Positions 9,461 to 37,945 of a DNA stretch of 39,364 nt are shown one piece after another. This DNA comes from a bacterium. GTDB lineage: Bacteria; Lernaellota; Lernaellaia; JACKCT01. The stretch is from the NCBI GenBank assembly GCA_019912885.1, contig JAIOHV010000057.1, forward strand, positions 1 to 39,364, in the 5' to 3' direction. The notes below the pieces were generated by a model that saw nothing but the letters and a program-made list of their open reading frames with translations, made no database searches and was not told where the DNA came from. A program made the position numbers and the translations under genes. Positions within the stretch are counted from its first letter, which is position 1, and each line of letters opens with the position of its first letter.

Positions 9461-9586
9461 TTACCCCGACGCTCGCCCCGTCGATCGTCAAAAAAGCCAG
9501 CATTTCCGCACTTCGCCTGACCGGCGCGGGGCTGGCACGGCCGTTGCTCTTCCTTGGCGCGACACGCATTCACGGGAGGCACGGTC

Positions 9587-10786
9587 ATGGGAATCATTGC
9601 GCGATCCGCGGCGGTCATCGGCGTCGAGGCGCTCGCGGTCGAGGTTCAGGTCGACGCGAGGCTGGGCACCTTCAATTTTCAGGTTGTCGGCCTTCCCGAC
9701 GGCGCCATACGCGAGGCGCGCGATCGCGTCATCTCCGCGATCCGCGCGGCCGGCTACTTCCTGCCGGACAGGCACATCACGGTTAACCTCGCGCCGTCGG
9801 ATCTGCGCAAGGAGGGTTCGGGTTACGATCTGCCGATCGCCGTCGGGGTGCTGACCGCGTCGCGCCTCGTGCCCGAGACCGACGCCATCAACGATTTCGT
9901 GATCATCGGCGAGCTGTCGCTGGATGGCGGCGTGCGTCCGGTGCGCGGCGTCCTCGCGGTCGCGCTGGCCGCGCGCGCGTGGGGCATGAAGGGCGTCATC
10001 GTGCCGGAGGCGAACGCGCAGGAAGCGGCGTTCGTGCAGGGCATCGACGTCATCGGCGTGACCGACCTGCCGCAAATCGTGCAGTTTTTACGCGGCGAGC
10101 TCGACATCGCGCCGACGCGCGTCGATCCGCAAAGCGTTCTCGCCGACAACCACGACGCAAGCGAACTCGACTACGCGCAGGTCGTGGGGCAAGAGCACGC
10201 CAAGCGCGCCATGGAGATCGCCGCGGCCGGCGGGCACAACGTCCTTCTCGCCGGCCCGCCGGGCGGCGGCAAGACGATGCTTGCGCGCAGGCTCACCACG
10301 ATCCTGCCGCCGATGTCGCTCGACGAGGCGCTCGAGGTCACGAAGATCCACTCCATCGCCGGGCGCCTGCCGGACAAGGCGGCCGTCATATCGCGTCGGC
10401 CGTTTGAATCGCCGCATCACACCATCAGCGACGCGGGGCTCGCGGGCGGCGGGGCAATACCCCGGCCGGGCACGATCAGCCTCGCGCATAACGGCGTGCT
10501 GTTCCTGGACGAGTTGCCGGAATTCTCCCGCCACGTCCTCGAAACGCTGCGCCAGCCGCTCGAAGAGGGCGACGTCACCGTCGTTCGCGCGGCGGCGGAT
10601 TGCACCTTTCCCGCGCGATTTTCCATGGTCGCGGCGATGAATCCCTGCCCCACGACCCAACAGCACCAGGAAAATACGCAAAACGCATCCGAACGCAACG
10701 CCGCGTTTAATAAAGGATACTCGCGCTTCCTTCCGCGTTGTCCGTGTACGCGCCTCCAGCGAGAGAGCGAAATCAGCCATGTGTGA
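9587..10786 (+). pseudogene. comM: comM/yifB, Mg-chelatase-like AAA+ ATPase, 3' part replaced
   Basis: The start [20 protein letters not shown] (ATG 9587, GGGAGG upstream) and the N-terminal domain ([14 protein letters not shown]) are standard for the YifB/ComM family. So are the Walker [17 protein letters not shown], the Walker [10 protein letters not shown] and the [22 protein letters not shown] motif. ComM is a hexameric helicase that aids integration of transforming DNA by branch migration. Family proteins are about 500 residues and continue MNPCPCG. Here homology stops after MNPCP (codon ending at 10651), and the frame runs 45 unrelated residues to a stop at 10786. The zinc-site and C-terminal Mg-chelatase regions are missing, so it should not work. 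The break is most simply read as the left junction of the element to the right. comM is a known integration target, for example for AbaR islands in Acinetobacter. Confidence 0.88.
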
Positions 10787-14801: not shown

Positions 14802-15770
14802 TCACCAATTTCGCTTTTCATGTTTGACCATCCGCCGCGCCGCGTGATAGTCGATGCCGACAAACGCTGCGGCGGCCATCATGGATGCGTCAGTTTGCTC
14901 GGCCAGAAATTGGATTAGCCGCTGATCCAGCGATTGAGCATTTTTCAAGTTGGGCTGCTGCTCCGATGCACGAACGCCGGGCGGTATGTCCTGGACCGAG
15001 ATTGATTTTCGATTGTCTGCCGCGGCCCGCGCCCTGGCAACCAGGATCGCACTCTGAAGTTCGCGCACATTTCCGGGCCAGGAGTAAGCGCGAAGGATGT
15101 GAGCGGTGAGAGGCTGCAAACGAAGGCCATGCGAATTGTTTGGTCGGCATTCCTCAATAAATGCCCTGGCCAGCATCATGATGTCGCTCGGTCGCTCGCG
15201 GAGAGGCGGAATGTGGACCACAGAGGCCGCGATCCGGTAGTAGAGATCGACGCGAAATTTCCCCTCGTCGACGAGCGCCTTGAGATCCTTGTTCGTCGCA
15301 GCAACGACTCGAACGTCCACGGGCGCCGGCTTGCTGCTTCCCACTCGGACGATCTCTCCTTCCTGGAGAACGCGCAGGAGCCGGGCCTGGAGACCCAACG
15401 GCAATTCTGCGATCTCGTCCAGAAACAGGGTGCCGCCGTTGGCGATCTCGAAGTGACCTTTCCGTGTCGTGATTGCTCCGCTGAAAGCTCCGCGTTCGTG
15501 GCCAAAGAATTCGCTGTCCACGAGACCCTCGGGGATCGCGCCGCAATTCACGGCAACAAATGGTCGAGTGCGCCGGGGACTGTGCCAATGGATGGCCCTC
15601 GCCACGCCCTCTTTGCCGGTGCCGGTTTCGCCCTGGATGACCACAGGAAAATCGGCCGGCGCGTAGATCGTCCGGACTTCTCGGAAAATCTCTGTCAGCC
15701 CGGGGTCCGACGTTTTCAGTGCTTTTCCTGGCCCGTATTCCAAGGTCTCGATGTGCTTGGGCGTTCTCAT
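14802..15770 (-). CDS. Sigma-54-dependent transcriptional activator without receiver domain
   Basis: The 322-residue protein is a PspF-like enhancer-binding protein: a short N-terminus, a complete AAA+ domain, then a DNA-binding tail. Seen motifs are Walker A GETGTGKE (47-54), the sigma-54 contact loop as GAFSGA (94-99, usually GAFTGA), Walker B GGTLFLDE (112-119), and the family's RVDLYYRI and WPGNVRELQ. The tail has a short helix-turn-helix-like segment ([20 protein letters not shown]) rather than a standard Fis domain. It lacks a receiver or other N-terminal sensor, so control may be by expression level or a partner. It is divergent from the nuclease gene. Sigma-54-type promoters at 23783 and 24130, with tandem palindromic repeats between them, are natural targets inside the same element, though binding is inferred. 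Confidence 0.9.
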
Positions 15771-15860
15771 GGGCCGGACATTACGGCATCGTGTCTTCCC
15801 AAATCCTCGGCGGCGGGTCGATTCTTTCTCGGATTTGTGTCGCCAGCGGATCGATCCCCT

Positions 15861-15891
15861 TTGACGTGTCGCCGAACAGTCGGCAGACTGT
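15861..15891 (+). promoter_or_regulatory. Promoter candidate with overlapping palindromic operator
   Basis: TTGACG (15861-15866) lies 17 bp before CAGACT (15884-15889). A perfect 6-4-6 palindrome ACAGTC-GGCA-GACTGT (15876-15891) overlaps the -10. The layout resembles the lexA operator in this element but the half sites differ, so another regulator is likely. The site lies 38 bp before the nuclease start and in the region shared with the divergent sigma-54 activator. Confidence 0.4.
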
Positions 15892-15928
15892 CGGCAAAAG
15901 ATCGGCTCCTGAAAAACGGAGGTGTTCG

Positions 15929-16642
15929 ATGAAACGGGCCTCAGTGGTTGTTCTTCTGGCTTTTGTTTTTCTCGCGTCTGTGTGCCTGGCCGAGGAATCC
16001 GGCAAAACGATCACTGCCAAGGTCCTCCATGCTGTCGACGGCGATACGCTGGCAATTCAAATCGATGGCCGCACTGACAAGGTTCGGCTCATTGGAGTCG
16101 ATACACCCGAAACAGTGCATCCAAGCAAGCCGGTCCAATACTTCGGCAAGGAAGCGAGCGCCTTCACCCACAAGATAGTGGATGGCAAGACTGTTCGCCT
16201 CGAACTCGACCAGGCGAGCGCCGCGACGAACCACCGCGATAAATATGGGAGGCTTCTCGCCTACGTTTTCCTCGAGGATGGCACGCTGTTGAACGCTGAG
16301 ATCATTCGCCAGGGATACGGCCACGCCTATACGCGGTTCCCGTTTGCCAAGATGGAAGAATTCCGGACGCTGGAGCGCGAGGCACGGGAAGCGGGACGTG
16401 GACTCTGGGCAGGGGGCGAGGGTGACACGCCAGCGCCGGGGGTATCAGCCCCGCCGCCAGCTGCACCAACAGATCGACCGTGCAAGATCAAAGGCAACAT
16501 CAGCGCCAGCGGCGACAAGATTTTCCACGTGCCGGGGCAGCAGAACTACGACAAGACGCAGATCAATGAGGCGTCGGGCGAGCGATGGTTCTGCTCGGAA
16601 GAGGAAGCTATTCAAGCCGGTTGGCGAAAAGCCAAACGCTGA
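15929..16642 (+). CDS. Secreted thermonuclease (SNase-like) with C-terminal sunset domain
   Basis: The ATG at 15929 (GGAGGTG upstream) gives 237 residues with the signal [20 protein letters not shown]. The nuclease domain shows [28 protein letters not shown] and [10 protein letters not shown], matching staphylococcal-nuclease strands that carry the metal-binding Asp and catalytic Arg residues. A Pro/Ala-rich linker leads to a ~50-residue C-terminal module ([38 protein letters not shown]) of the kind called the sunset domain, often attached to secreted nucleases. It should hydrolyse DNA or RNA outside the cytoplasm with calcium. In a mobile element it may serve nutrient gain, competition or superinfection control. 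It converges with the helicase gene. Confidence 0.9.
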
Positions 16643-20041: not shown

Positions 20042-20070
20042 AGGGTAGGCTAACTGGTGTTAGCTGTCAA
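20042..20070 (-). promoter_or_regulatory. lexA promoter with operator in the spacer
   Basis: On the minus strand TTGACA (20070 to 20065) and TACCCT (20047 to 20042) are separated by exactly 17 bp. The spacer contains the perfect palindrome GCTAAC-ACCA-GTTAGC (20064 to 20049). A repressor bound there would block polymerase. This is the best candidate for the binding sequence of this LexA; it differs from the E. coli and Bacillus boxes. Confidence 0.75.
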
Positions 20071-21199: not shown

Positions 21200-23299
21200 T
21201 TACTGGTGAACCGCCTGTGGCTTCGAACCGTCGGCCCCGACTATGCCTTCGAATGCGGCCCTGTACTTTTCGGGAATACGCCCGAGGAGTTCCGTCAACC
21301 CGGCATCGCCCAGGCGCGTTCCCTTTTTCCCCTCGAATTCGATCCAGTGGTATTGCTCCTCGGTCATCCCCAGCATCTTGCCCATCTCGCCCTGCGACAT
21401 GCCGATGCACTGGCGAACCGTCCGCAACTTGTACTTGGGTGTGGTGTCTTCCGCGACCGGCTTGATGCCCAGCAGATCGGCGACGCGCACCCCGAAAAAT
21501 TCCGCCACGCGCCTGACTATCTCGTGCTTGTGGGGCACCATCCCACGCCGCTCCCAATTGGAGACCGTGCATTCATCGACGCCGAGGTTCCGCGCCAGTT
21601 CCTTCTTGTTGAAGTGGTTCTTCATCCGGAGCCACTGGAGCCGCTCGCCGAAAGTTTTCGTCTCGGAAAAGTCTTTGATCATGTGGACGTCTTCGCTCGT
21701 GTTGATTTGAATCACCAGGTCGCCGTTCTTGGGGAAGGCAGGCAACAAGCCATTCAGCCCGAAAGCTTCCCGCAGGACATTGAAATCCAGATGAACGTCG
21801 AGACGCCCTTCCTGCATGGCCACGATCTTGTCCACTACGCTGGCGAGCGCCTCCTTCTGTTCCCCGATGTGCAGCCCGTCGAACACGCTGCCGAAGTTGG
21901 CGAAGGCGAGTTTCAGCTTTTCCAAATCAACATGGGTGTGGTCGCCGTCGATCCCGGCTTCCTTCTGCAGGCGCTCGATCTCGCTCTCCAGTATCTGCTT
22001 CTCGGATTTGAGAGGCCGTGCCCGGGCCGCCGCTTCCTCCTGGTCGAGCAGCCCATCCTGGTATGCATCCATGACCCGCTTTAGCGCTTTCTCAACCTCA
22101 GCCAATTGGCGATGCAGCGAACGGGACTGGTCGTCGAGATGCAGCCGGATGAATTCTTTGTTGCTGATCAACTTCAGCGCCTGCTTCACAACCGGCTCCG
22201 GATCTGTCGCCCAATGTGCGAGAGCCTCGACGATCTTTTGTTCGGTGCGTCTACGATCAAAGGTAAGACCCGAACAGACGCTTGCGCCTTTCTGCTGCCG
22301 CCATGAACAGCGGTAATACGACCATGCCCCACCGCCCACCCCTTTTTTCGGATGGTTGTAGCCCGCCATGCTGCCGCCGCAGAGTCCGCATTTGATCAGC
22401 CCCGATAGCAGATAGGTGGACCGTTTGTTGCGATGATGAAGCCCGATCTTGTTGGTGAGAATCTCGTGGACCTTTGTCCAGGTGTCTTTGTCGACAATTG
22501 CCGGGAGCGCGCCCTCAACGACGATCCAGTCCTTTTCTGGGCGCGGTGTTGACGTCGTGCTGGTGCCCTTGCGCTTGTTGTAGGTGGACGCTCCGTAGTA
22601 GGCGGGATTCCCCAGCGTGCGGCTCACGCTGGTCGCGCTCCAGTATTTGGCGTAGCGCGGCTTCGTTCCGCTCGCGTTCAAGTAGTTGGTGATGAACCGG
22701 ATGCTGCGATGCTCCAGATAAAGATCGAACATCTTTCGGACCAATTTGGCTTCGTCGTCCTGGATCAGCAACTTTCCTTCCTGCTCGCGATATCCAAAAG
22801 GAATGACGCCGCCGTTCCATTTGCCTTCCTTGGCGCGCACGAGCATGTGCTCGCGGACGCGCTCGGCGATCATCTCGCGCTCGAACTGAGAGAACGACCC
22901 GAGGACATTCAAGGTCAATCTCCCCATGGGGTTGGATGTATCGAACCGCTGGGAAATCGAAATGAAGGCGACGTCATGGTCCTCCAGGGTGTCGAGCAGA
23001 CGCAGCAGGTCGCGCAGGTTGCGGCTGATGCGGTCGATCTTCGTGACGACCACCGCGTCGAATTTCTTGGCGACCGCGTCGGCCATCATCCTCTTGAAGG
23101 CCGGGCGGTTCTCGGTATTGCTGCCGGACAGCCCCGCGTCGGAATAGTGGTCGTGGATTTTCAGATGATGAAAGGCGCAGTATTCGCGCAACACCTTTTC
23201 CTGGATCGCCAGAGACTCCGATTGCACCTGCATGTCCGTGGACACGCGGGAGTATATGGCGACCACCGTCCCGGTTTCGAGTTTATCGTTTTCTCGCAT
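21200..23299 (-). CDS. Large serine recombinase with C-terminal XRE-type domains
   Basis: The ATG at 23299 has AGGAGG 4 nt upstream and gives 699 residues. The resolvase domain has AIYSRVS with nucleophile Ser20 and KIDRISR (Asp89, Arg90, Arg93). Then come the recombinase domain (~165-295), a zinc ribbon with Cys304, Cys307, Cys331 and Cys342, and a coiled coil (~385-450). These are the parts of phage integrases such as phiC31, which join attP and attB without cofactors. Unusually, the protein continues with an XRE-like helix-turn-helix (about 549-612, KKELARNLGVDECTVSNWER) and a second, weaker copy (~622-665, SQGEMGKMLGMTEEQYHWIE). It is a good candidate for the enzyme that inserted the element into comM. 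It follows a catalytically altered paralogue in the same operon. Confidence 0.92.
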   Translation of the reverse strand: MRENDKLETGTVVAIYSRVSTDMQVQSESLAIQEKVLREYCAFHHLKIHDHYSDAGLSGSNTENRPAFKRMMADAVAKKFDAVVVTKIDRISRNLRDLLRLLDTLEDHDVAFISISQRFDTSNPMGRLTLNVLGSFSQFEREMIAERVREHMLVRAKEGKWNGGVIPFGYREQEGKLLIQDDEAKLVRKMFDLYLEHRSIRFITNYLNASGTKPRYAKYWSATSVSRTLGNPAYYGASTYNKRKGTSTTSTPRPEKDWIVVEGALPAIVDKDTWTKVHEILTNKIGLHHRNKRSTYLLSGLIKCGLCGGSMAGYNHPKKGVGGGAWSYYRCSWRQQKGASVCSGLTFDRRRTEQKIVEALAHWATDPEPVVKQALKLISNKEFIRLHLDDQSRSLHRQLAEVEKALKRVMDAYQDGLLDQEEAAARARPLKSEKQILESEIERLQKEAGIDGDHTHVDLEKLKLAFANFGSVFDGLHIGEQKEALASVVDKIVAMQEGRLDVHLDFNVLREAFGLNGLLPAFPKNGDLVIQINTSEDVHMIKDFSETKTFGERLQWLRMKNHFNKKELARNLGVDECTVSNWERRGMVPHKHEIVRRVAEFFGVRVADLLGIKPVAEDTTPKYKLRTVRQCIGMSQGEMGKMLGMTEEQYHWIEFEGKKGTRLGDAGLTELLGRIPEKYRAAFEGIVGADGSKPQAVHQ

Positions 23300-23330
23300 C
23301 AAACCTCCTAGTGATATTGGGCATGAGCCG

Positions 23331-23708
23331 TCACATCGGCGTGGACGTATCGAACGGCTCGATGATTGGAACGATGACGACGCCGCATCGCTTCAACTCG
23401 TCCGACAGCCGCACTGCATCCTCATAATTTCGGCTCAGGCGGGCGTAGTCCGTCACGATCACGGCGGTGAATTTTCCCGCTGCGGCGTCGGCCATCATCC
23501 GCTGGAACGCTGGGCGGTTCCCCGTCGTATGGCCGCCCTGTCCGTCATCGCAGTAGTGGTCGTGGATTTTCAGTTGACACCGGGCGCAGTAGTCACGCAC
23601 AGCCTTTTCATGGGGCGATGGGGAATCGTTGTGCCCCGGCGGGATGGCGGCCATACGGGAATAGATGGCGACCGTCGTGCCGGGTTCGAGCTTGTCATTT
23701 GTTCGCAT
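23331..23708 (-). CDS. Stand-alone serine-recombinase catalytic domain lacking Ser and Asp
   Basis: The 125-residue product aligns without gaps to residues 1-125 of the downstream recombinase; I count about 68 identities. The nucleophile position is Ala20 (AIYSRMA against AIYSRVS) and the acidic partner is Ala89 (DYARLSR against KIDRISR). Residues 21-38, which form the active-site loop, are almost wholly changed, whereas HDHY, NRPAF and RMMADA segments are kept. Arg18, Arg90 and Arg93 remain. It ends at TGA where the paralogue has Gly126. A strong AGGAGG 4 nt before the ATG indicates translation. It cannot cut DNA but could form mixed dimers or tetramers with the active enzyme. A regulator or directionality factor is possible; simple decay is the alternative. 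Confidence 0.8.
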   Translation of the reverse strand: MRTNDKLEPGTTVAIYSRMAAIPPGHNDSPSPHEKAVRDYCARCQLKIHDHYCDDGQGGHTTGNRPAFQRMMADAAAGKFTAVIVTDYARLSRNYEDAVRLSDELKRCGVVIVPIIEPFDTSTPM

Positions 23709-23710
23709 TG

Positions 23711-23761
23711 GACCTCCTCGGTTCGGGTTTGCACGAGGTGTCCATTACCTCGTTTGGACAC
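23711..23761 (-). promoter_or_regulatory. Leader with two mutually exclusive hairpins before the recombinase operon
   Basis: Hairpin A pairs 23734-23739 (CGAGGT) with 23747-23752 (ACCTCG). Hairpin B pairs 23738-23744 (GTGTCCA) with 23755-23761 (TGGACAC). They overlap, so only one can form. In the minus-strand transcript the free ACCTCG arm can also pair with the ribosome site CGAGGAGGT (23720-23711). This suggests control of translation of the first recombinase-like gene. Pairing is seen in sequence; function is inferred. Confidence 0.45.
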
Positions 23762-23782
23762 ATCATCAAGGCGTTCTTTATT

Positions 23783-23797
23783 GCGAGGAGCGTGCCA
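23783..23797 (-). promoter_or_regulatory. Sigma-54-like promoter for the recombinase genes
   Basis: On the minus strand TGGCACG (23797 to 23791) is a perfect -24 element and TCGC (23786 to 23783) stands at the -12 position with the essential GC and the correct 6-base gap after TGGCA. The T-to-C change weakens it. Transcription would start near 23771, about 63 nt before the start codon at 23708. Confidence 0.45.
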
Positions 23798-23879
23798 CGC
23801 ACGGCGGACCGTTCGGCCCGACAAATGGCCGTAAATCAAGGGGTTGCGCGAGACATCGGGAACGGATGGCTCGCTATTC

Positions 23880-23971
23880 GTTTTGCAAAAGGCCCTTTAA
23901 GTTTTGCAAAACGGCCTTTAAATTTTGCAAAAGGCCCTTTCCGTTTTGCAAATCGGCCTTTCCGTTTTGCA
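23880..23971. repeat. Four and a half 21-bp direct repeats with TTTTGCAAAA palindromes
   Basis: Units start at 23880, 23901, 23922, 23943 and 23964 (partial). Each has TTTTGCAAA(A/T) followed by GGCC and CTTT with small changes. The 21-bp period is two helical turns, so bound proteins would line up on one face. The array lies roughly 110-200 bp upstream of the minus-strand sigma-54-like promoter and 185-275 bp upstream of the plus-strand one, typical enhancer distances. Because 21 is divisible by 3, a minus-strand frame (23874-24071, 65 residues) reads as heptads such as LLQNLKA. I regard that as a by-product of the repeat because it lacks a clear ribosome site. A replication iteron array is the other option. 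Confidence 0.85.
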
Positions 23972-24129
23972 CTTTTGCGGGAAAACGCACCCTCAATATC
24001 CCGTAACCCCTCGTAATCAAAAGCCTATCGTCTTCGATTTGCACTTTTTCAAAAACCACACGGTTCTCCACCCCTCCGTTTTCCTGATTTCCCTTTAGTT
24101 ACAACGGCTTATCGGTTTTTCCCAGGCGC

Positions 24130-24144
24130 TGGCATCCCTCTTGC
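24130..24144 (+). promoter_or_regulatory. Sigma-54 promoter for the replication/recombination operon
   Basis: TGGCA (24130-24134) and TTGC (24141-24144) are separated by six bases, the exact -24/-12 spacing of the sigma-54 consensus. The predicted start is near 24156, 27 nt before the first gene. No comparable sigma-70 promoter was found in the preceding 150 bp. An activator for such promoters is encoded in the same element at 14802-15770. Confidence 0.6.
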
Positions 24145-24182
24145 GCTTAGAGGCGCTCGACCTGTTTGACCGAGGAGGATCG

Positions 24183-24395
24183 ATGAGCGCCACGGGGATT
24201 AAGGAAGTTCGTATCTACCATGCCGCGCTGCCCGAAGCGCATGTAAAACGCCGCGCCGCAGAACTCGTGCGGCTCCTGGCGCTCGGCCTGGCGCGATCCG
24301 TTGTGAAGGCGCCGGTTGGCGCCGGGATTCAAGAGCATCCGGAAAACAAATTTCAGAATCCGGCGGATCTCCCGGCGAGCGGGATGGCGCTGTGA
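24183..24395 (+). CDS. Small protein of unknown function, first gene of the operon
   Basis: The ATG at 24183 follows GAGGAGG and gives 70 residues, with a helical middle (VKRRAAELVRLLALGLARSV). No domain is recognised. Its TGA shares a base with the next ATG (TGATG), so translation is probably coupled. As the first gene after the sigma-54 promoter it may be an early regulator, but nothing in the sequence proves it. Confidence 0.6.
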   Translation: MSATGIKEVRIYHAALPEAHVKRRAAELVRLLALGLARSVVKAPVGAGIQEHPENKFQNPADLPASGMAL

Positions 24396-24862
24396 TGTCC
24401 GCTCGCGCCGCCAAGAGAACCTCGAACGGGAATATGGATGCTGAAGCCGCGCGGCAGTTCCTCATCGACCATTTTCGGGCGCACGCGATCAAAGGCGAAC
24501 TCAAGCCGACACGGACCTATGAGGTGATCGAGCAGGATGCCGCGCACCTAAAAATTTGCACGCGCAACGGCGGCGGCCGCTGGGTTCAATCCCTCTTCGC
24601 GGACCTCGTGACCTGCAAGAGCCTGAAGTACGGCGAATTCCGGCGCGTCGATTTGTTCTGGGGGGTGGAGCGCAAGGGCCGGGACGCTGACGCGGTGTTT
24701 CAGTTTTCGACGGGCGCGACCGCGGACGACGACACGTTCCGTGTTTCCATTCCCGGCCCCGCGTTCACCCCGAGCGGCGAGCCGGTCCCCGTTGACGCAT
24801 TCATGGCGCGCGGCTCTGACCGCCATTCTTCCCGCCGTTCCCGAAAGGAGAAATCAGCATGA
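24395..24862 (+). CDS. Phage-type protein of unknown function
   Basis: The 155-residue product begins MSARAAKRTSNGNMDAEAAR at an ATG overlapping the previous stop. The core (YEVIEQDAAHLKICTRNGGG, SLFADLVTCKSLKYGEFRRV) looks like a compact alpha/beta fold, and the tail is basic (SDRHSSRRSRKEKSA), which would suit nucleic-acid contact. It overlaps the nuclease gene by 4 bp (ATGA). I do not recognise the family. The setting suggests a role in DNA recombination or replication. Confidence 0.65.
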   Translation: MSARAAKRTSNGNMDAEAARQFLIDHFRAHAIKGELKPTRTYEVIEQDAAHLKICTRNGGGRWVQSLFADLVTCKSLKYGEFRRVDLFWGVERKGRDADAVFQFSTGATADDDTFRVSIPGPAFTPSGEPVPVDAFMARGSDRHSSRRSRKEKSA

Positions 24863-25881
24863 CCAACCCGCGCATGACGTCCACGTATTCGATGTGGAGT
24901 TCATTTCGCAATTGCCGCATGGCGTGCAAGCTGCGGTACCTGGATTTTCTCGTTTCCCTGGAATTCGATCCCAATCTTCGCTTCGGTTCCGCGATTCACC
25001 AGTTCCTCGAATGCTGGCATCGGCACAGCGACCTCACCCAGGTGCTCGACCTGATCGACCGCTCGTATCCGAACCGCGCGGGCGACGAGGACCAGCAACG
25101 AGACTGGCATCTCGCCACGGCGATCATGAAGGGCTACGCGACTCGGTATCCGTCAGAGGAATTCGCGGTCGTCGAATTGGAAAAGACGTTCGAGGGCGAG
25201 ATCGTCAACCCGGCAACCGCCGCCATGTCACGCAGTTTCCTGCTGGCGGGCAAGGTCGACGGGATCGTCCGAATTGGCGACGAGTTTTTCCTCTTGGAAA
25301 ACAAGACCGCGTCGCTGCTCGACTCCGGTTACCTCGAACGACTGTGGACCGATTTTCAGATCATCCTTTACTGCTGGTACGTCGAGCAGACACTCGGCCT
25401 TCGCATCAACGGCGTCATTTACAACATCATCGTCAAGGCGAAGCTCCAGCAGTCGCGGGGCGAGACCGAGGCCGAGTTCGAAGCCCGCCGCTCGGAACTG
25501 ATCGCCAAGTCCAAGACCGGCAAATCCTCGGCGCAACGCCGCATGCCGGAAACGGACGACGAGTTCCAGGCTCGTCTCGCTGTGAAGTACATCGAGCCGG
25601 GCATGTTCCACCGGGAGATTCTCTACATCTCCCGCGACCGTTTCGCGGTGCTGCAGTCCGAACTCTGGGAACTGACGCAGAACTTCCTCGATGCCCGCCG
25701 CCGCGACGTTTGGTATCAGAACACCTCGCAGTGCTTTCAGTACGGCCGCCCGTGCAGCTACTTCCCGCTTTGCCGCAGCGATTTCTCGCCGCTCGTCCGC
25801 GAGAACCACTACCGCGTCGAACCGCCCCACACCGAGCTTTCCGACACATCAACAACAACCAACAACACACCCGTTTTTTGA
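24859..25881 (+). CDS. PD-(D/E)XK nuclease of the RecB/Cas4-like family
   Basis: The 340-residue protein shows LRFGSAIHQFLE (helical motif with His), then KVDGIV with Asp134 and LLENKT with Glu147 and Lys149, the PD-(D/E)XK metal site. Two Cys near the N-terminus (NCRMAC, Cys19 and Cys23) and a C-terminal set in QCFQYGRPCSYFPLC resemble the four-Cys iron-sulfur clasp of AddB and Cas4 nucleases. It should resect DNA ends during phage recombination or replication. An adjacent Sak4-like ATPase supports a two-step end-resection and annealing pathway. It overlaps the preceding gene by 4 bp. Assignment to the superfamily is strong; polarity and substrate are not known. Confidence 0.85.
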   Translation: MTNPRMTSTYSMWSSFRNCRMACKLRYLDFLVSLEFDPNLRFGSAIHQFLECWHRHSDLTQVLDLIDRSYPNRAGDEDQQRDWHLATAIMKGYATRYPSEEFAVVELEKTFEGEIVNPATAAMSRSFLLAGKVDGIVRIGDEFFLLENKTASLLDSGYLERLWTDFQIILYCWYVEQTLGLRINGVIYNIIVKAKLQQSRGETEAEFEARRSELIAKSKTGKSSAQRRMPETDDEFQARLAVKYIEPGMFHREILYISRDRFAVLQSELWELTQNFLDARRRDVWYQNTSQCFQYGRPCSYFPLCRSDFSPLVRENHYRVEPPHTELSDTSTTTNNTPVF

Positions 25882-26644: not shown

Positions 26645-27112
26645 ATGACGACGCAAGCCCCCGTTGATTCCACTGATCTCGCCGTCTACGACGCCGACTA
26701 CGCTGCGGCCGATGTGCAGCCCAATCAGTTCGACGATGTGCCGGACGGCAAATACCAGGTGAAGGTCGAGAAGGTCGAACTGGCCCGCACACAGAACGGC
26801 GCGCCGATGCTCAAGTGGCACCTTCGCGTGCTCGGCCCGCAGCATCGCGGCCGCATGATGTTCCGCAACAACGTGATGGCCTCGAGCGAGAACATCAAGT
26901 TCCTGAAGGCCGACCTGCTCGCTTGCGGCCTGGAACTCGGCAAGCTCTCCGATCTGCCCGAGCGTCTCGGCGAATTGCTCGACGTGGCTCTCGAAGTCAC
27001 GCGAAAGACGCGCGGCGAGTACGCCAACGTCTATTTGAGCAAGCGCATCGTCCTGGACAATCCGGACGCGGATTACAAGAGCGCGGCCAAGGGCCCGCTG
27101 TCGGCGTTCTGA
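26645..27112 (+). CDS. DUF669 family phage protein, likely ssDNA-binding
   Basis: The 155-residue protein has an acidic N-terminus and then FDDVPDGKYQVKVEKVELAR, PMLKWHLRVLGPQHRGRMMF, and a C-terminal VYLSKRI. This matches the DUF669 profile of phage early regions, which is thought to have an OB-like ssDNA-binding role. AGGAGG lies before the ATG. Its place between a Sak4-like ATPase and an ERCC4-type nuclease fits a recombination module. Confidence 0.8.
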   Translation: MTTQAPVDSTDLAVYDADYAAADVQPNQFDDVPDGKYQVKVEKVELARTQNGAPMLKWHLRVLGPQHRGRMMFRNNVMASSENIKFLKADLLACGLELGKLSDLPERLGELLDVALEVTRKTRGEYANVYLSKRIVLDNPDADYKSAAKGPLSAF

Positions 27113-27114
27113 GC

Positions 27115-27555
27115 ATGGACGCGGCCGCTATCATCATCGACACCCGCGAGCAGGTTCCCTATGCCTTCGATTCCCGGCAAGTGGTGCGCCAGGCGCTGCC
27201 TGCCGGGGATTACTCGGTCGTGGGATTCGAATCGTCGGTCGCGGTCGAACGTAAGACGCTCGAGGACTTCGTCCACTCGGTGATCCGCGACCGCGAACGG
27301 TTCAAGAAAGAACTGGCCAAACTCGCGGACTATCCCCGTGCCTGCATCGTCGTCGAGGCGAACCTGCCCGATGTGCTTTCGGCCCGATATCCATCGGGCG
27401 CGCATCCCCATTCGGTATTCGGCGCGGCGGTCTCCATCTGCGTGGACCACGGAGTGCCGGTGTTTTTCTGCGGCGACCGCCAGTCGGCCCGCCGGTTCAC
27501 CGAGGAGTTTCTGGAGCGCGCCGCCATGAAAATCAAAGCGGAAACAAATCCATGA
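27115..27555 (+). CDS. ERCC4-type nuclease
   Basis: The 146-residue protein contains the complete active-site signature of the XPF/Mus81 family: IIIDTREQ, LPAGDYSVVG and VERKTLEDFVHS (the ERKxxxD motif). It lacks helicase and HhH parts, so it is a single-domain phage version, likely cutting branched DNA near junctions. The start codon is 3 bp after the DUF669 stop, and its TGA overlaps the next ATG (ATGA). No strong ribosome site is present, so coupling to the upstream gene is probable. Confidence 0.88.
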   Translation: MDAAAIIIDTREQVPYAFDSRQVVRQALPAGDYSVVGFESSVAVERKTLEDFVHSVIRDRERFKKELAKLADYPRACIVVEANLPDVLSARYPSGAHPHSVFGAAVSICVDHGVPVFFCGDRQSARRFTEEFLERAAMKIKAETNP

Positions 27556-29771
27556 ACGAATCGACTCAATACCTGCGTGGCCGCGTGGAGGCGCTGTTTC
27601 ATGCATCGCCGGGCTTTTCCGCCGGGCGGCTGAAGGATGAGAACGACCGCCTCGTCACCTTCGCGGGCAAGGTGATCGCCGCCGTGGGCGAGCAGGTCAT
27701 CCTCCAGGGCGCGTGGGTGAATCATCCGAAGTACGGCAAGCAGTTCCAAGCCGACACTCTCACGCACGATCTCGATTTGTCGGTCGAAGGTCTGGCCCAT
27801 TACCTCGCCAACAATCCCGCGTTCGTCGGACTGGGTCCGGTCAAAGCGCGGCGCATCGCGCAGGCGTTTGGGAAAGACTTCGGGCGTATCGTCGTCGAGG
27901 ATCCCGGGGCCGTTGCCAAGGCGGGGCCGATCACCATCGAGGCCGCGCAGAATATCCGCGCCGAGTGGTTGCGGCACCAAGCGATCAACGCGGCCGCGAC
28001 CGAGCTATCCGCCTTCGGCCTCACGCACCACCAAGTGCGCTCGCTGATCGACAAATACGGAAACGACGCCGTCGCCATCATCAAGAGCGATCCGTATCTG
28101 ATCGTGCGTGACATTCGCGGCTTCGGTTTCAAGCGCGTGGATGCCATCGCCCGCAAGGTGGGTGTGCCGAAGGAATTTCCGCCGAGGGTTCGCGCGGGGA
28201 TTCTCGATTGCCTCGACGACGCCCTCGACCAGGGCCACACCTGGGTTGAGGAAGCCGACCTCATCGAGCGCGCCAACAAGCTGCTTGTCATGGATGTCCT
28301 GAATAGCCGCGACATCATCGAGATGGAACTGAGCGGTTTGATCACCAAGGGCACGCTTTCCTGCGACTCCTATGATGGCCGCTTTCTGATTGCCCGCGCT
28401 GACATCCGTGCAATGGAGCGCGAGGTGGAGCAGTGGCTTCGCGGCGGCGAAAAGGATCATCCCTGCGTGTTCGACATGCTGGGTGTCTGGCAAAAGGTGC
28501 GGGACGGCGAGCTATGCCCCGCGCTTAACCCCAAGCAGCGGGCCGCCGTGGTCGCCGCGCTCACCCATCAGATCACCGTGATATCCGGCGGCGCGGGCAG
28601 CGGCAAGACGTTCACCGTGGGAGCGCTGACAAAGCTGCTGGAGCAGAACTTCATCAAGGTCGTGCTCGCCGCGCCGACCGGTAAGGCCGCCAAGCGCCTC
28701 GAACAGGTCGTCGGTAAAGAGGCGTTCACCATCCACCGACTCCTCGGCTTCAATGGCCACGAATGGTCGCGCGGCCCCGACGATCCCATCGACGCCGACG
28801 TCGTGATCATCGACGAGACCTCGATGGTGGACCTCCACCTGGCGTGGCGGCTCCTGCGGGCCATCGATCACGAGCACACCGCCGTTGTGTTCGTCGGCGA
28901 TCACAACCAACTGCCGCCGGTCGGGCCCGGCGATCTGCTGCGCGACATGATCCATACGTGCATCGTGCCCGGCGTGGTGCTGACCGACATCGTGCGCCAG
29001 GCCGGTGAACTGAAGGAAAACAGCACGGCGATTCTGCGCGGGAACGTTGCTAAGACGTCTGCCCAAGTCGATGCGCGCGGTCGCCGCCCCTGGTATCTGA
29101 TCGACGAGTTCACCGACCCGTGGGATGTGCGCAGGTTTATTCGGGACCTCTATGAGACGGTCCTCCTGGATAAACTGGGTTTCGATCTGCTCGATGATAT
29201 CCAACTCCTGACGCCCAAGCGGAAAGACGTCCTGGGCGTCAACGAACTGAATATCGAACTCCAGAGCCTGATTCAGCGGAAGCTGTACGGCGTCGAAGTG
29301 CCCGCCGTTCCTCCCGGACGCAGGCCGTCCTTTCTCCTTCACGACAAGGTCATCCAGCGCCGCAACAACTACGATCTCGGCATCATGAACGGCGCGATCG
29401 GGCGCGTGTTGGAATTGCTGCCCCACGGCGATCTGCGCGTGCGATTCGACAACGCCGAGGTGACCCTAAGCCGGGCAGACGGCGATATGGATGATCTCCA
29501 GTTGGCGTATGCACTGACGATCCACCAGTGCCAGGGCAGCGAGTTCCCGTGCGCCGTCGTGATCGTCCACAAGAGCCACAGTTTCATGCACAGCCAGAAT
29601 CTTTTTTACACCGGCGTCTCCCGCGCCAAGGAAACCACCATCGTCATCGGCGACCGCTGGGGCGTGCGGAACTGCGCCACGAAGAAGGCCAACGACGAGC
29701 GCAACACCTTTCTGGGTTTGTGGCGCAGGTGCGACGAGGCGGCCTCACTGAAAGAGGCGCTGAATGAGTAG
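27552..29771 (+). CDS. RecD2-like superfamily 1B DNA helicase
   Basis: The 739-residue protein has an N-terminal OB-like part and HhH motifs (FVGLGPVKARRIAQAFG, IRGFGFKRVDAIA) followed by a helicase core: Walker A ISGGAGSGKT (about 345-354), AAPTGKAAKRL (motif Ia), VVIIDETSMVD (motif II), VFVGDHNQLPPVGPG (motif III) and the C-terminal ALTIHQCQGSEF and FYTGVSRAKE (motifs V and VI). This is the layout of RecD2, a 5'-3' helicase acting outside RecBCD. It would unwind DNA for recombination or replication. It overlaps its upstream neighbour by 4 bp and its downstream neighbour by 8 bp. Confidence 0.92.
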   Translation: MNESTQYLRGRVEALFHASPGFSAGRLKDENDRLVTFAGKVIAAVGEQVILQGAWVNHPKYGKQFQADTLTHDLDLSVEGLAHYLANNPAFVGLGPVKARRIAQAFGKDFGRIVVEDPGAVAKAGPITIEAAQNIRAEWLRHQAINAAATELSAFGLTHHQVRSLIDKYGNDAVAIIKSDPYLIVRDIRGFGFKRVDAIARKVGVPKEFPPRVRAGILDCLDDALDQGHTWVEEADLIERANKLLVMDVLNSRDIIEMELSGLITKGTLSCDSYDGRFLIARADIRAMEREVEQWLRGGEKDHPCVFDMLGVWQKVRDGELCPALNPKQRAAVVAALTHQITVISGGAGSGKTFTVGALTKLLEQNFIKVVLAAPTGKAAKRLEQVVGKEAFTIHRLLGFNGHEWSRGPDDPIDADVVIIDETSMVDLHLAWRLLRAIDHEHTAVVFVGDHNQLPPVGPGDLLRDMIHTCIVPGVVLTDIVRQAGELKENSTAILRGNVAKTSAQVDARGRRPWYLIDEFTDPWDVRRFIRDLYETVLLDKLGFDLLDDIQLLTPKRKDVLGVNELNIELQSLIQRKLYGVEVPAVPPGRRPSFLLHDKVIQRRNNYDLGIMNGAIGRVLELLPHGDLRVRFDNAEVTLSRADGDMDDLQLAYALTIHQCQGSEFPCAVVIVHKSHSFMHSQNLFYTGVSRAKETTIVIGDRWGVRNCATKKANDERNTFLGLWRRCDEAASLKEALNE

Positions 29772-32700
29772 TGCGCCTCGTCCGGATGTATCCACCGCCC
29801 GCCGCTTGCTGCGCGAATATTTTTTCTCGCGCATCGATATTGTCGCGGCCCGGCAGTCGTGGGTGGATCGCAAGACCAAGGAAAGTATTTCTCAGCCGCG
29901 CCCGGTCAAGGGCGAAGCGCACCTGGATGGGCTGATTGCATTCCACGTCGCCGGACCCGACCCCAGCAAAGCGCCGCCGCTCAATTACATCAACCGTAAG
30001 ACCGGCGGCCTCGTCGCGGACAAGCGCGGTTTTGATCGTGTCGGCAGTTACGCGGTCGCGCCCGACAATACGACCGTCTGGCTCTGCTTCGACTTCGACG
30101 GCCCAGGCCATCCACTGCCGCTGGCCGACCCTCAGGCGACGATGTTGGCGTGCGAGGAGAAGTGCCGCGTCCTGGGCATCCCCGTCCATATCGAGAAGTC
30201 CGGCAGCGGCCAGGGTTGGCACCTCTGGGTGTTCTTCGAGACGCCGGTGCCCGCCGCAGACGCCCGGTTGCTCGCCCACCATGTTGCACCCACGGGCCAT
30301 GTGCTCACGACCGGCGAACCCGCCGACGTCCGGATCGGGCGCGGGATCGAATGCTTCCCGAAACAGAACACGGTCAGCGACAAGCCGTTCCGCGCGGGCA
30401 ACATGGTGTGGCTCCCGTTCTGGTACGGCGCGAAGGACGGCGGGAACCAATTTCATCGGATTGCGGACGGCGGCGGCCTCGTGCCATACGCGCCCGATGG
30501 CTTCGAACGCCTGACGGCCGCGCGGCTCCAGGAAATCCTCGCGCAGGTGCCCGACGATATCCGGCGTTTCGTATTGAAAACGAAGGGTGGACTAAAAGAC
30601 AGGCCGACCGAAAAAAGTAGTCCATCTGCCGCTCCCAGAGACTTCGCGCCCACAGATTCTGCCGTGGTCCACGCGGCGCTCGATCACGTCTCGCCCGACT
30701 GCTCCTACGACGACTGGGTTCGCATCGGTATGGCGCTCCACCACTGGGACGCGCGGGCGGGCCTTGCCATCTGGGACGCCTGGAGCGCACGCGGCGAGAA
30801 ATATGTTGAAGGGGAGCCGTCGCTCAAGTGGGATGGATTCTCGTCCGGCGGCGGCGTCACTCTCGGCACGCTGTTCGACATGGCGAAGAAAGCGGGATGG
30901 GAGCCGCCGGAAAAACACAGGGCGCCGCTGCCGACCGACGAGGAGATCGCCGCGTTCATGGACGTCGATCCGGCCTCGCTGCTCGACCAGGTCAAGTCCG
31001 GGAAGCAACGGGAAATCCTCGGATGCCTGCTCGAAGCGAATCGTCCGCTCACCCCCAAGGAAATAGCTGCCGAGATCGGCAAGGACCACAACTCCACGAA
31101 GGTGCTTCTGCACCGCATGGCGAAGGACGGAAAAGTCCGGCGCGACGAGGCGGGCGGTTACTTTTTGGGGGCGGATGTAACCCAAAAGGCCGGTGACAGG
31201 GTTACATCGCCGGTTACATCCGAGGAAAATGTAACCCGAAAGACGCACGGAGCGGTTACATCCGCCGCAAATGTAACCCGCGCGGCGCTGAAAAATGTAA
31301 CCGCGCCGGACGGCCCGCGCCTTCCGACCATCGTTGTCAACAACCGCCAGGGCCCGCCGGTCATCGACGAGGCGTGGGCGGCGGTGCGAGCGTCGAACTA
31401 TCCGCCGCGCATTTTCCAACGCGAAGGGTCGCTCGTTCGTCTCGTGATAACGGACGGTGTCCCTGCGATCAGCGCCATGAACTTCGTCGCGGTCTATGGC
31501 CATCTCTGGCGCATTGCCAACTGGGTGGTCGATGCCAACGACATGCAGAAGGCGACCGACCCGCCCCAAAAGATCGCCAGCGACATGCTGGAGTACGTTG
31601 ACGAGTCATTGCCCCGACTCGAATCCGTCGTTTCGACACCCGTATTCGATTCGTCGGGCAACCTCGTGCAGACTCCGGGATATCACCGCGAGGCGCGGCT
31701 CTGGCTCCACCGACCACGAGGATTTGAACCGGCGGATGTTCCGGCACAGCCGTCAAAATCGCAGATCAATAAAGCTCGCGCTCTCCTGCTCGATGATCTG
31801 CTGACGGATTTTCCGTTCGCGGCTGAATCGGATCGTGCGCATGCCGTGGCCGCGCTGCTCCTGCCTTTCGTTCGCCGCTTGATCCAGGGACCGACGCCGC
31901 TTCACCTCGTTGAGGCGCCGACTCCCGGCACCGGAAAGACGCTGCTCGCCGAGGCGATATCCCGTATCGTTCAGGCGAAGCCCGCCGAGATCACCACCAT
32001 CGAGAATGACGAAAAAGAAAACTCCAAGAAAATCACGGCGCTCCTCGACCTCGCTCCCCAAGTCGTGCTGATCGACAACATTCGGATCGGTCTCCGGTCC
32101 TCGCAGTTGGCCGCCGTGATTACGTCGGAAACATGGACCGACCGCGTGCTCGGCGTCACGCGCATGACGTCGCTGCCGAACAACGCACTTTGGATCGCCA
32201 CGGCCAACAATCCGACGCTCTCCCTGGAGATCGCACGCCGGTGCATCCGTATTCGGATCGATCCGCGCATCGACCGCCCGTGGAAGCGGGAGGGATTCAA
32301 GCACGACCCGCTTCGCAATTGGGTGGACCGCCAGCGCGCCGAACTCGTTCATGCGGTACTTACATTGGTGCGCGCATGGATTGCCGCCGGAATGCCCGAA
32401 GGCGCGCACTCAATCGGCTCCTTCGAATCTTGGGCGCGAGTCATCGGCGGCATTCTTGAAGTCGCCGATATCCCCGGCTTCCTTTGCAACACCGAGGAGC
32501 TTTACGAAGTCGCGGACGCCGAGGGCAACGAGTGGCGTGAATTCATCGCGGCCTGGTGGGATCGACTTGGAAACCGATGGGTGAGCACCAGCGAGCTATT
32601 TGACCTTGCCATCAACAACGAGTTGCTGGCGAGCATCACCGGCGACAAGAGTCAACGCTCCCAAAAGACCCGGCTCGGCAAGGCTCTCAGCGCCTTGCGC

Positions 32701-33135
32701 GACCGGCAATTCGATACGTGGCGGATCAAGGTGCGCCGGGAGCGGCACTCAAAACAGGCCGAATACGGGCTTGAAATGGTCGCCTCGGACGGCTCCACCA
32801 CGGGTTCGGTGCTTTCCCTTTTCCCAGAGCAACGTCCCGCATGTCCCGCAGATGTCCCGCAGGAAAATCCTGAGCAAAATCAAAGCGCGGCGGGACGTGC
32901 GGGACATGCGGGACATAATCCCAGCCCCGATACGCGCACGCGCACATACGCATGCACGCCTGAAAAAGGGTTAGGCGGCAACGTCCCGCAAGACCCGCAC
33001 GTCCCGCCAGCCCTTGAAAACATTGAAAAATATCCTGCGGGACATGCCTCGCGCCCAAAAACCGATGTCCTGCAAGTCCCGCAAAAGCCGTCCGGCGACC
33101 TCGCGGACTTCGATCCCCAGGAGGAAGAATCATGA
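29764..33135 (+). CDS. Multidomain replication protein: primase-polymerase, winged helix and AAA-type ATPase
   Basis: The 1123-residue protein begins with an archaeo-eukaryotic primase domain of the TOTE type: CFDFDG (Asp110, Asp112), EKSGSGQGWHLWVFFE and NMVWLPF. Residues ~298-375 (SYDDWVRIGMALHHWD, LKWDGF) match a primase C-terminal (PriCT-2-like) helical domain. Residues ~408-470 form a winged helix (ILGCLLEANRPLTPKEIAAE). A low-complexity stretch with repeated Val-Thr (~470-516) follows. The C-terminal half has an ATPase with APTPGTGKTLLAEA (Walker A, ~717-729), VVLIDNI (Walker B) and LWIATANNPTL (sensor 1), as in phage replicative helicases. The disordered tail is Pro/Gln/Gly-rich. It should start and drive replication of the element. 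Both disordered stretches carry dense DNA repeats listed separately. It overlaps both neighbouring genes. Confidence 0.85.
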   Translation: MSSAPRPDVSTARRLLREYFFSRIDIVAARQSWVDRKTKESISQPRPVKGEAHLDGLIAFHVAGPDPSKAPPLNYINRKTGGLVADKRGFDRVGSYAVAPDNTTVWLCFDFDGPGHPLPLADPQATMLACEEKCRVLGIPVHIEKSGSGQGWHLWVFFETPVPAADARLLAHHVAPTGHVLTTGEPADVRIGRGIECFPKQNTVSDKPFRAGNMVWLPFWYGAKDGGNQFHRIADGGGLVPYAPDGFERLTAARLQEILAQVPDDIRRFVLKTKGGLKDRPTEKSSPSAAPRDFAPTDSAVVHAALDHVSPDCSYDDWVRIGMALHHWDARAGLAIWDAWSARGEKYVEGEPSLKWDGFSSGGGVTLGTLFDMAKKAGWEPPEKHRAPLPTDEEIAAFMDVDPASLLDQVKSGKQREILGCLLEANRPLTPKEIAAEIGKDHNSTKVLLHRMAKDGKVRRDEAGGYFLGADVTQKAGDRVTSPVTSEENVTRKTHGAVTSAANVTRAALKNVTAPDGPRLPTIVVNNRQGPPVIDEAWAAVRASNYPPRIFQREGSLVRLVITDGVPAISAMNFVAVYGHLWRIANWVVDANDMQKATDPPQKIASDMLEYVDESLPRLESVVSTPVFDSSGNLVQTPGYHREARLWLHRPRGFEPADVPAQPSKSQINKARALLLDDLLTDFPFAAESDRAHAVAALLLPFVRRLIQGPTPLHLVEAPTPGTGKTLLAEAISRIVQAKPAEITTIENDEKENSKKITALLDLAPQVVLIDNIRIGLRSSQLAAVITSETWTDRVLGVTRMTSLPNNALWIATANNPTLSLEIARRCIRIRIDPRIDRPWKREGFKHDPLRNWVDRQRAELVHAVLTLVRAWIAAGMPEGAHSIGSFESWARVIGGILEVADIPGFLCNTEELYEVADAEGNEWREFIAAWWDRLGNRWVSTSELFDLAINNELLASITGDKSQRSQKTRLGKALSALRDRQFDTWRIKVRRERHSKQAEYGLEMVASDGSTTGSVLSLFPEQRPACPADVPQENPEQNQSAAGRAGHAGHNPSPDTRTRTYACTPEKGLGGNVPQDPHVPPALENIEKYPAGHASRPKTDVLQVPQKPSGDLADFDPQEEES
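31175..31303. repeat. Seven iteron-like ATGTAACC(C/G) sites inside the primase gene
   Basis: The 9-mer ATGTAACCC or ATGTAACCG occurs in plus orientation at 31175, 31229, 31271 and 31295, and in minus orientation at 31199, 31211 and 31253. Start distances are 24, 12, 18, 24, 18 and 24 bp. Both orientations encode Val-Thr in the single frame, so the array does not break the protein. Replication initiator genes of lambdoid phages and some plasmids hold the origin in this way. Confidence 0.85.
32834..33082. repeat. Second cluster: GTCCCGC/GCGGGAC sites in the 3' end of the primase gene
   Basis: About ten copies of GTCCCGC or its complement lie in 250 bp, for example at 32834, 32843 and 32854 in plus orientation, followed by several in minus orientation and more plus copies near 32974 and 33001. 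They encode the disordered C-terminal tail. The core differs from the upstream array, so this would be a separate binding site or a simple repeat expansion. Confidence 0.7.
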
Positions 33136-35737: not shown

Positions 35738-36694
35738 TCAGAGGCTCTCGAGGGCGTCCTCAAAATCGTCGTCGGTGATGTGGGCGTAGACCTGGGTGGT
35801 GGTGACGCGGGCGTGGCCGAGGGCCTTGGACACGAGGAGCAGGTTCTTCGTGCGGCCATAGAGCAGCGTGGCGAAGGTATGGCGCAGGCCGTGGACGCTG
35901 ATCTTGCCGTCGAGTCCCGCCCAGGCGAGCCAGAGGCCCATGCGCTCCTGGACCTGGCGCGTGCTGATGCGCCTATTGCGATTCGAGAGGAAGAGCGCGT
36001 CGGTCTCGGCCATCTCCTTGCGGCGGCGCTGAACGTACTTGCGCAGGATCGACCGAAGCTCGGTGTTCAGGAACCGCACCTGGGCCTTGCCGCCCTTGGC
36101 GCGCTTGATGCGCAGTTGCTTTTCGTCGAGGCGCACGTCGCCGATGTCGAGGCCGACCAGTTCCGCCAGACGGATGCCCGTTCCGAGCAGGACGCGCAGC
36201 ATGACCAGGTCGCGCTCGGCGGCCTCGCCCTTGTGCGCCGCGACCGCCTTGAGCAGGGCTTTGACCTCGGCGGGCGAGAGGAAAGACGGCGCTTCCCGCT
36301 CGTACCGTTTGATCTTGATCCAGTCGGCGGGGTCGCGGCCCGTTGCGCCCACGTTGGCCACGTAGCGCCCGAAGCTGCGGAGGCAAGCCCTTATGCGCCC
36401 CAGGCTCGCGTCGCCACGGGGCGCGCCCGTGTGCGTCGTGGTGACCGGCGCGGACAAAAGGAACCGCGCCAGCAGATCCGCCGTGAGCGCCGCCGCCTCC
36501 ACATCGCCCGCGAAGGCGAGCAGCAGGCGCAGGTCGCGGCGGTAGCAGCTGAGGGTGTGCGGGCTTTTGCCGTCGGCCTCCAGGCGAGTCAGGTAGCTCT
36601 CGATCAATTCCGAAAGTGTTCGGGACGGGTGGAGCAGAATGACAGGGGTCTGGAGAGGGTCGCAAGGGTTCACGCAGGGTGCGGGCTGATTCAC
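35738..36694 (-). CDS. Tyrosine recombinase/integrase
   Basis: The 318-residue protein (GTG start overlapping the upstream stop) has an N-terminal core-binding domain (LSELIESYLTRLEADGKSPH) and a catalytic domain. The conserved residues are Arg in TGIRLAEL, Lys in AKGGKAQV, His-x-x-Arg in VHGLRHTFAT, His in LGHARV and Tyr in TTQVYAHI. It resembles XerC/D and phage integrases and should be active. As the element also has a large serine recombinase, the two may serve integration and multimer resolution, or mark nested elements. It is the last gene of a minus-strand cluster of small genes. Confidence 0.92.
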   Translation of the reverse strand: MNQPAPCVNPCDPLQTPVILLHPSRTLSELIESYLTRLEADGKSPHTLSCYRRDLRLLLAFAGDVEAAALTADLLARFLLSAPVTTTHTGAPRGDASLGRIRACLRSFGRYVANVGATGRDPADWIKIKRYEREAPSFLSPAEVKALLKAVAAHKGEAAERDLVMLRVLLGTGIRLAELVGLDIGDVRLDEKQLRIKRAKGGKAQVRFLNTELRSILRKYVQRRRKEMAETDALFLSNRNRRISTRQVQERMGLWLAWAGLDGKISVHGLRHTFATLLYGRTKNLLLVSKALGHARVTTTQVYAHITDDDFEDALESL

Positions 36695-36924
36695 TTGCTC
36701 GCCTCCTCGTCCAGCGGCACCAGATCTTCGCGCCGCGCGTCGCTCGTGACCCAGGAGAACCGCTGCTCCTTCTCGATCCAGGGCGCGACGTCCCAGAGTC
36801 CGGTGGGCCGTCCGTTGTCGCCCAGGATCGGCTCGTTCACCCTCACTTTGAGGCCGGTCATGAAGACGTGGACCGTTCCCACGTACCGGGCGACCATGCC
36901 GCGTCGCAATCTAGCGGTTTTCAT
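36691..36924 (-). CDS. Small beta-rich protein of unknown function
   Basis: The 77-residue product (MKTARLRRGMVARYVGTVHV) has GGGAGG upstream and looks like a small SH3-like barrel (VHVFMTGLKVRVNEPIL). Its stop overlaps the integrase start (GTGA), so the two are translationally coupled. No family is recognised. Confidence 0.6.
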   Translation of the reverse strand: MKTARLRRGMVARYVGTVHVFMTGLKVRVNEPILGDNGRPTGLWDVAPWIEKEQRFSWVTSDARREDLVPLDEEASK

Positions 36925-37498: not shown

Positions 37499-37930
37499 TT
37501 ACTCGGCGCTCGCGGCGGTCTTTTCGCCGTCAGCGGCAGGATCGGCCTCGGCGCTCGTCTTGACCTTGGCCATCTCGTCCTTGGGCAGCGGCACCTTGTC
37601 GAGCCATCCCTGGTCCTTGCAGAACACCAGCATCATGCGGAAGACGCGCTTGGTCTTGGTGATGGTGATCGGACTCTTGGGCCGCTCCTGGCGCGGCTTG
37701 CCCGGTTCCTTCGCCTCGCGGATCAGCTTGTTGACGTTGTCGGCCTTGAAGAAGGCGGCGACGTGGACGGGCAGGATCTTGGCGATGTCTTTGCCCTCGC
37801 CGAAGTACTCGACCGCGAGTTCGAGGTCCTTGCCGTAGGTGTAGATGGTCCGCTCGTTCTTGCCGATGGTGCGCAGGTGCGCGAGATACTGCTCGGTCGC
37901 CTCTTTCATCGTGACGGTCTTCGTGCTCAT
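37499..37930 (-). CDS. Stand-alone core-binding (SAM-like) domain of a tyrosine recombinase
   Basis: The 143-residue product has TVTMKEATEQYLAHLRTIGK, NERTIYTYGKDLELAVEYFG and, after a basic loop, TITKTKRVFRMMLVFCKDQG WLDKVPLPK. This matches the N-terminal DNA-binding domain of integrases, helix by helix, including the place where the catalytic domain would start. Instead there is an Ala/Glu/Asp-rich tail and a stop. No catalytic residues are present. AAAGGAACG lies before the ATG. It may bind att core sites and compete with, or assist, the full integrase 0.8 kb downstream. Truncation debris is the alternative, but the ribosome site and tight spacing argue for a kept gene. Confidence 0.7.
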   Translation of the reverse strand: MSTKTVTMKEATEQYLAHLRTIGKNERTIYTYGKDLELAVEYFGEGKDIAKILPVHVAAFFKADNVNKLIREAKEPGKPRQERPKSPITITKTKRVFRMMLVFCKDQGWLDKVPLPKDEMAKVKTSAEADPAADGEKTAASAE

Positions 37931-37945
37931 GGGTCGTTCCTTTCG

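Follow-up and report, generated by a model that had tools for sequence, protein, structure and literature searches.

Sigma-54 operons that diverge from a shared activator site have been described before, and prophages are also known to affect a host activator. On the D. vulgaris plasmid pDV1, two divergent sigma-54 T3SS operons share one enhancer, and the activator is DVUA0100 (PMC4641369). In Salmonella, the prophage Gifsy-1 affects the activation of the host activator RtcR (PMC9879122). Among open-access papers, we found no report of a sigma-54-driven phage early promoter, that is, of a prophage integrase or replication genes under this factor, the closest articles being PMC9879122 and PMC7693777.

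The locus analyzed here can be compared with four described systems. (i) It resembles pDV1 in having diverging sigma-54-type promoters, common upstream sites, and a nearby activator gene carried by a mobile replicon (PMC4641369), but the genes concerned are a prophage integrase and replication genes instead of secretion genes, and the upstream sites form a tandem 21-bp array. (ii) As in the Gifsy-1/RtcR case, a prophage is linked to a sigma-54 activator; in contrast, sigma-54 control of the early genes of Gifsy-1 itself is not reported there (PMC9879122). (iii) With PspF/RtcR-type proteins, the activator shares the AAA+ sigma-54 interaction domain and a putative C-terminal DNA-binding segment, and it resembles PspF in lacking a response-regulator domain and in its best defence-library match, RtcR_PspF2. 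It differs from this type in that it has no CARF or other sensor, carries a GAFSGA loop, and is encoded by a prophage. (iv) The integrase has the Resolvase-Recombinase-Zn ribbon architecture of the phiC31/A118 class and likewise integrates inside a protein gene, but it has an extra C-terminal HTH and a sigma-54-type promoter.

The window, that is, the whole stretch of DNA analyzed, comprises 39,364 nucleotides (contig C57 of the host genome, G000). Its relevant features are as follows.

9533..9547, plus strand: sigma-54-type promoter of host comM, TGGCACGGCCGTTGC
9587..10654, plus strand: comM, 5' part, cut at MNPCP by the prophage insertion (attL); the 3' part is on contig C140
14802..15770, minus strand: sigma-54 activator (bEBP) of 322 aa without a sensor domain, with a GAFSGA loop and a C-terminal three-helix segment
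19414..20016, minus strand: LexA-like repressor
20049..20064: operator GCTAAC-N4-GTTAGC at the lexA-like promoter, the sole such site in the window
21200..23302, minus strand: large serine recombinase (integrase) with Pfam domains Resolvase, Recombinase, Zn_ribbon_recom, and HTH_31 (C-terminal HTH)
23331..23708, minus strand: decayed remnant of an integrase N terminus (49% identity, two in-frame stops), located between the promoter and the integrase gene
23783..23797, minus strand: sigma-54-type promoter preceding the recombinase genes, TGGCACGCTCCTCGC (TGGCACG-CTCC-TCGC)
23880..23971: repeat array of 4.4 x 21 bp with the core TTTTGCAAAA + AAAnGGCCnTTT, proposed shared enhancer
24130..24144, plus strand: sigma-54-type promoter of the replication operon, TGGCATCCCTCTTGC
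24183..24395, plus strand: first gene of the operon (70 aa), a candidate for the recombination directionality factor
24392..24862, plus strand: conserved 156-aa protein
24859..25881, plus strand: PD-(D/E)XK nuclease
26645..27112, plus strand: DUF669 protein
27552..29771, plus strand: RecD2-like helicase, with a sigma-54-type site of its own in G006
29764..33135, plus strand: archaeo-eukaryotic primase/AAA helicase

The phage genes of the window encode the serine integrase, the LexA-like repressor, helicases, a primase, a Mor-like late activator, and the small and large terminases, and those of C140 a tail sheath, a tape measure protein, a baseplate, and an endolysin, so that the tailed-phage gene set (terminase, sheath, tape measure, baseplate, lysis, and integrase) is complete across both. 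C140 also carries the single ComM C-terminal domain of the genome. In G002, a single contig holds the matches to both C57 and C140, about 6 kb apart, and from this synteny we infer that C57 and C140 are adjacent; joined in this way, the blocks amount to about 80 kb (28.7 + ~6 + 45.5 kb). The element is thus an approximately 80-kb contractile-tail prophage in comM. In G001, G004, and G006, comM reads through without interruption; in G002, G003, and G005, it is broken at the MNPCP codons as well. Unexpectedly, strong sigma-54-type promoters directly before the start of comM were observed in G000 (CTGGCACGGCCGTTGCT, window 9532-9548), in G006, where comM is intact (TTGGCACAACCGTTGCT), and in G005 (TTGGCATCGCCCTTGCT); outside the window, the positions concerned are about 1436 in locus L104 and 9380 (minus strand) in locus L084. 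The promoter is weak in G002, and none was seen in G001, G003, and G004.

The intergenic region 23,709-24,182 contains two diverging sigma-54-type sites that flank the repeat array. An initial annotation had placed TGGCA-N6-TTGC on the plus strand before the replication operon and TGGCA-N6-TCGC on the minus strand before the recombinase genes, and we found the two motifs exactly there (24,130-24,144 and 23,797-23,783). Both sites combine the GG of the -24 element and the GC of the -12 element at the fixed spacing and correspond to the TGGCACG-N4-TTGC layout; the minus site departs from TTGC with TCGC at -12, as it does in all three genomes with this integrase. The window holds three matches to TGGCA-N6-TYGC, compared with an expectation of 0.82, namely, the divergent pair and one before comM. 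We scored the sites with our own rough approximation of the published sigma-54 consensus, a weight matrix for which a score of at least 12 bits arises roughly every 35 kb on each strand. When the 120-bp upstream regions were dinucleotide shuffled, the observed score was reached in 7 of 4,000 shuffles for the plus site and in 2 of 4,000 for the minus site. The host genome carries the rpoN gene on which the initial annotation depended (one copy in G000), and rpoN is present in all 7 class members examined. Against sigma-54 control of the region by the phage activator count the minus-site TCGC, a GTGT at -12 of the plus site in G003, the GAFSGA loop of the activator, and the approximate nature of the weight matrix. 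We consider it highly probable that the two sites are sigma-54 promoters.

Prophages usually use repressors, and ordinary sigma-70 transcription controlled by a repressor on the array or on the conserved integrase leader, be it the LexA-like protein or the integrase through its own C-terminal HTH, was considered as an alternative. In its favor, a 67-bp block covering the minus promoter and the integrase leader (23746-23812) is about 91% conserved into G003; this conservation exceeds the needs of a promoter and suggests that something besides it is kept there. The potential for RNA structure in this leader was not significant (z about -1.2). However, a crude scan of 23,600-24,300 revealed no sigma-70-like promoter, and the operator GCTAACN4GTTAGC, which is conserved upstream of the lexA-like gene (also at L065 12644 and L067 3142) and was not detected near host lexA (L109), occurs only at the promoter of the lexA-like gene itself. 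LexA-like control of the divergent region was rejected because of this operator distribution, and by its sites the protein is probably not a direct regulator here. Repressor control thus appears very improbable. As a separate matter, attP was ruled out as the role of the conserved block, since the attL/attR junctions in comM give another core, TGCCCC.

The array consists of 4.4 copies of 21 bp with 84% matches according to TRF, and its direct repeats are spaced 21, 21, and 21 bp. The even spacing of the initial annotation was thus confirmed, whereas the palindromic nature of the repeats holds in part: near-palindromes (TTTTGCAAAA and AAAAGGCCCTTT) lie inside the units, and the whole unit is a direct repeat. 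The distances had been described as usual for an enhancer on both sides, which agrees with our measurements of about 160-250 bp to the plus site and 83-175 bp to the minus site; repeated sites some 80-250 bp upstream are the spacing of sigma-54 enhancers (UAS). On the basis of its sequence, the array is likely to act as an enhancer.

The arrangement is kept in several relatives. (i) In G002, of the same family, both sites are identical (15/15), the array has 4-5 repeats, and the intergenic identity is 74%. (ii) In G003, of another family, the minus site is identical (15/15) and the plus site, TGGCACGACTTGTGT, retains TGGCACG together with the poor -12 element mentioned above; its array contains AAAAGGGCCTTAGAAAT-type repeats at 21 bp. 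(iii) In G006, about eight ~21-bp repeats (AAATGRGCCACTTTTC) are found 97-262 bp upstream of CTGGCACAGCCGTTGCT, a near-perfect sigma-54 site that precedes the 156-aa gene and the nuclease gene and is the counterpart of the plus site. The RecD2 helicase gene is relocated to the other strand in this genome, with ATGGCATAGTCGTTGCT directly upstream of its ATG. An AAAnGGCCnTT-like core and the ~21-bp spacing are common to all four arrays (G000, G002, G003, and G006), and the TTTTGC half of the repeat is found in G000 and G002 only. The G006 array is directly preceded by histidine kinase and response regulator genes (L085, 5312-7257), which suggests a signal input in that element. In viral contigs, no comparable arrangement was detected at 12 loci of integrase or nuclease homologs scanned for 15-45-bp arrays and sigma-54 sites, and a search for the exact leader motif among wider relatives gave no match.

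On the minus side, the integrase has the Resolvase, Recombinase, and zinc ribbon domains of a large serine integrase and is 62% identical in G003. The decayed fragment upstream of it, with YSRMAA in place of YSRVST, is absent in G003, where about 74 nt separate the promoter from the integrase start. Among the loci compared, the 70-aa gene on the plus side was found only with this integrase (G002 and G003) and not at the G006, G000:C150, G002:C6, and G003:C108 loci, and it is therefore a candidate directionality factor, a protein that excision would require in addition to the integrase.

Sister elements in G000:C150, G002:C6, and G003:C108 encode a replication nuclease that is 85-91% identical, and in G000:C150 a 4.6-kb stretch of the operon is 88% identical at the DNA level. 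In none of the three did we detect a sigma-54 site upstream of the operon (best scores in the regions tested, -5.6 to 7.0), a ~21-bp array there, or an activator gene among the ORFs of the stretch read, the contigs being short. A sigma-70-region-4-like gene was observed upstream in place of the sigma-54 module (L096 13233-14135; L098 1886-2623; L097). In two of the three sisters it lies just upstream, with a Pfam E value of about 8e-4 that is below Pfam's own cut-off, and the ORF of the third resembles it by eye. With near-identical replication genes and a sigma-70-like gene, these sisters represent a natural experiment in the swapping of control modules. They also bear on the possibility that the array is the replication origin of the phage, its repeats being iterons and the sigma-54 sites separate or spurious. 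Origins are commonly laid out as AT-rich direct repeats ahead of the replication genes, and a spacing of 21 bp suits iterons. However, the elements with the 85-91% identical PD-(D/E)XK gene have no such array there, and in three lineages the array accompanies sigma-54 sites at a promoter-typical distance, so that we regard an origin as quite improbable. By the same comparison, the proposal of the initial annotation that one enhancer drives both sides gains support: the sites and the array are conserved together, and both are absent where the replication genes belong to elements without an activator in the stretch read.

The activator that had been reported for the same element was identified at 14802..15770 (Pfam Sigma54_activat, 1.9e-65) and is kept in the relatives inserted in comM. 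The G002, G003, and G005 elements contain homologs, and G006 has a more distant one; the G002 homolog is split by frameshifts, perhaps by sequencing error. Its AAA+ sigma-54 interaction domain has invariant Walker motifs, and the loop reads GAFSGA, not GAFTGA, in G000, G002, G003, and G005 and GSFTGA in G006. PADLOC matched it to RtcR_PspF2 (3e-100) without the N-terminal sensor part. The window protein has no Pfam HTH match, and the G006 homolog matches HTH_11. AlphaFold predicts three helices at 281-321 (pLDDT about 76), the only usable part of a model that was too poor for a fold search. Matches among INPHARED phage genes were discarded, as judged by record names and lengths they mostly look like host contigs filed as phage. 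Four genomes share a block upstream of the gene (window 15771-15930, CCGACAGTCTGCCGACTGTTCGGCGA...CGTCAAAGG), which is a possible operator controlling the activator gene; the LexA operator was not found in this upstream region.

The promoters might instead depend on a host activator that responds to stress, nitrogen, competence, or a surface signal and binds the array, with the phage activator acting elsewhere. G000 has 15 activator-domain matches, i.e., about 14 other host activators that could act at the array; comM has a sigma-54-type promoter, so that a host regulon may be shared; and the G006 activator has a different C terminus, although the G006 repeats share the GGCC core. Conversely, the 4.8-Mb host genome has the array motif at this locus alone, with no second cluster, and array and activator gene are kept or missing together among the elements, as far as the contigs show. 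A host activator at the array is therefore considered unlikely.

The sites, the array, the activator gene, and rpoN, together with their conservation and co-occurrence as read from the sequences, are consistent with the following mechanism, to which we assign a probability of about 0.68 with the phage activator as the ligand of the array. The region would be the early control region of the contractile-tail prophage in comM, with two diverging sigma-54 promoters that stay closed until activated. Once a presumed trigger leads to its synthesis, the sensorless activator would bind the array as one or more hexamers and, by looping, enable host sigma-54 polymerase to open both promoters simultaneously. 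One transcript would encode the serine integrase; the other would encode the 70-aa protein, as the candidate directionality factor, along with the replication proteins. If the array serves both promoters, excision and replication would be triggered from a single enhancer, and the absence of the activator would suffice for lysogenic silence; if the 70-aa protein is the directionality factor, a single activation event would supply it together with integrase and replication. In temperate phages, silence is usually maintained by repressors that act at sigma-70 promoters. Sigma-54 promoters for integrase and replication would instead leave a prophage silent unless an ATP-driven activator is present, and the logic of the lysogeny switch would be turned around. 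A further idea, tentative and rather doubtful, is that the decision to excise and replicate runs on the same sigma factor as the interrupted comM, so that a competence signal could activate the prophage and its excision restore comM, a sigma-54-run "active lysogeny"; related elements would have swapped the whole regulatory module for a self-encoded sigma-70-like factor.

Two other observations concern the prophage as a whole. A XerC-like tyrosine recombinase gene (window 35741-36910, minus strand) and an ORF with a SAM-like N terminus (37502-37945, minus strand) sit between the small and large terminase genes, as they do in G002, and may constitute an insertion or a second recombination module. 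Near attR, locus L068 (G000:C140:30000-45500) contains genes for a DrmD/DrmMI- or type IIG-like methylase, a DruE-like helicase, SIR2, and HerA, apparently a defence cluster carried at the prophage end.
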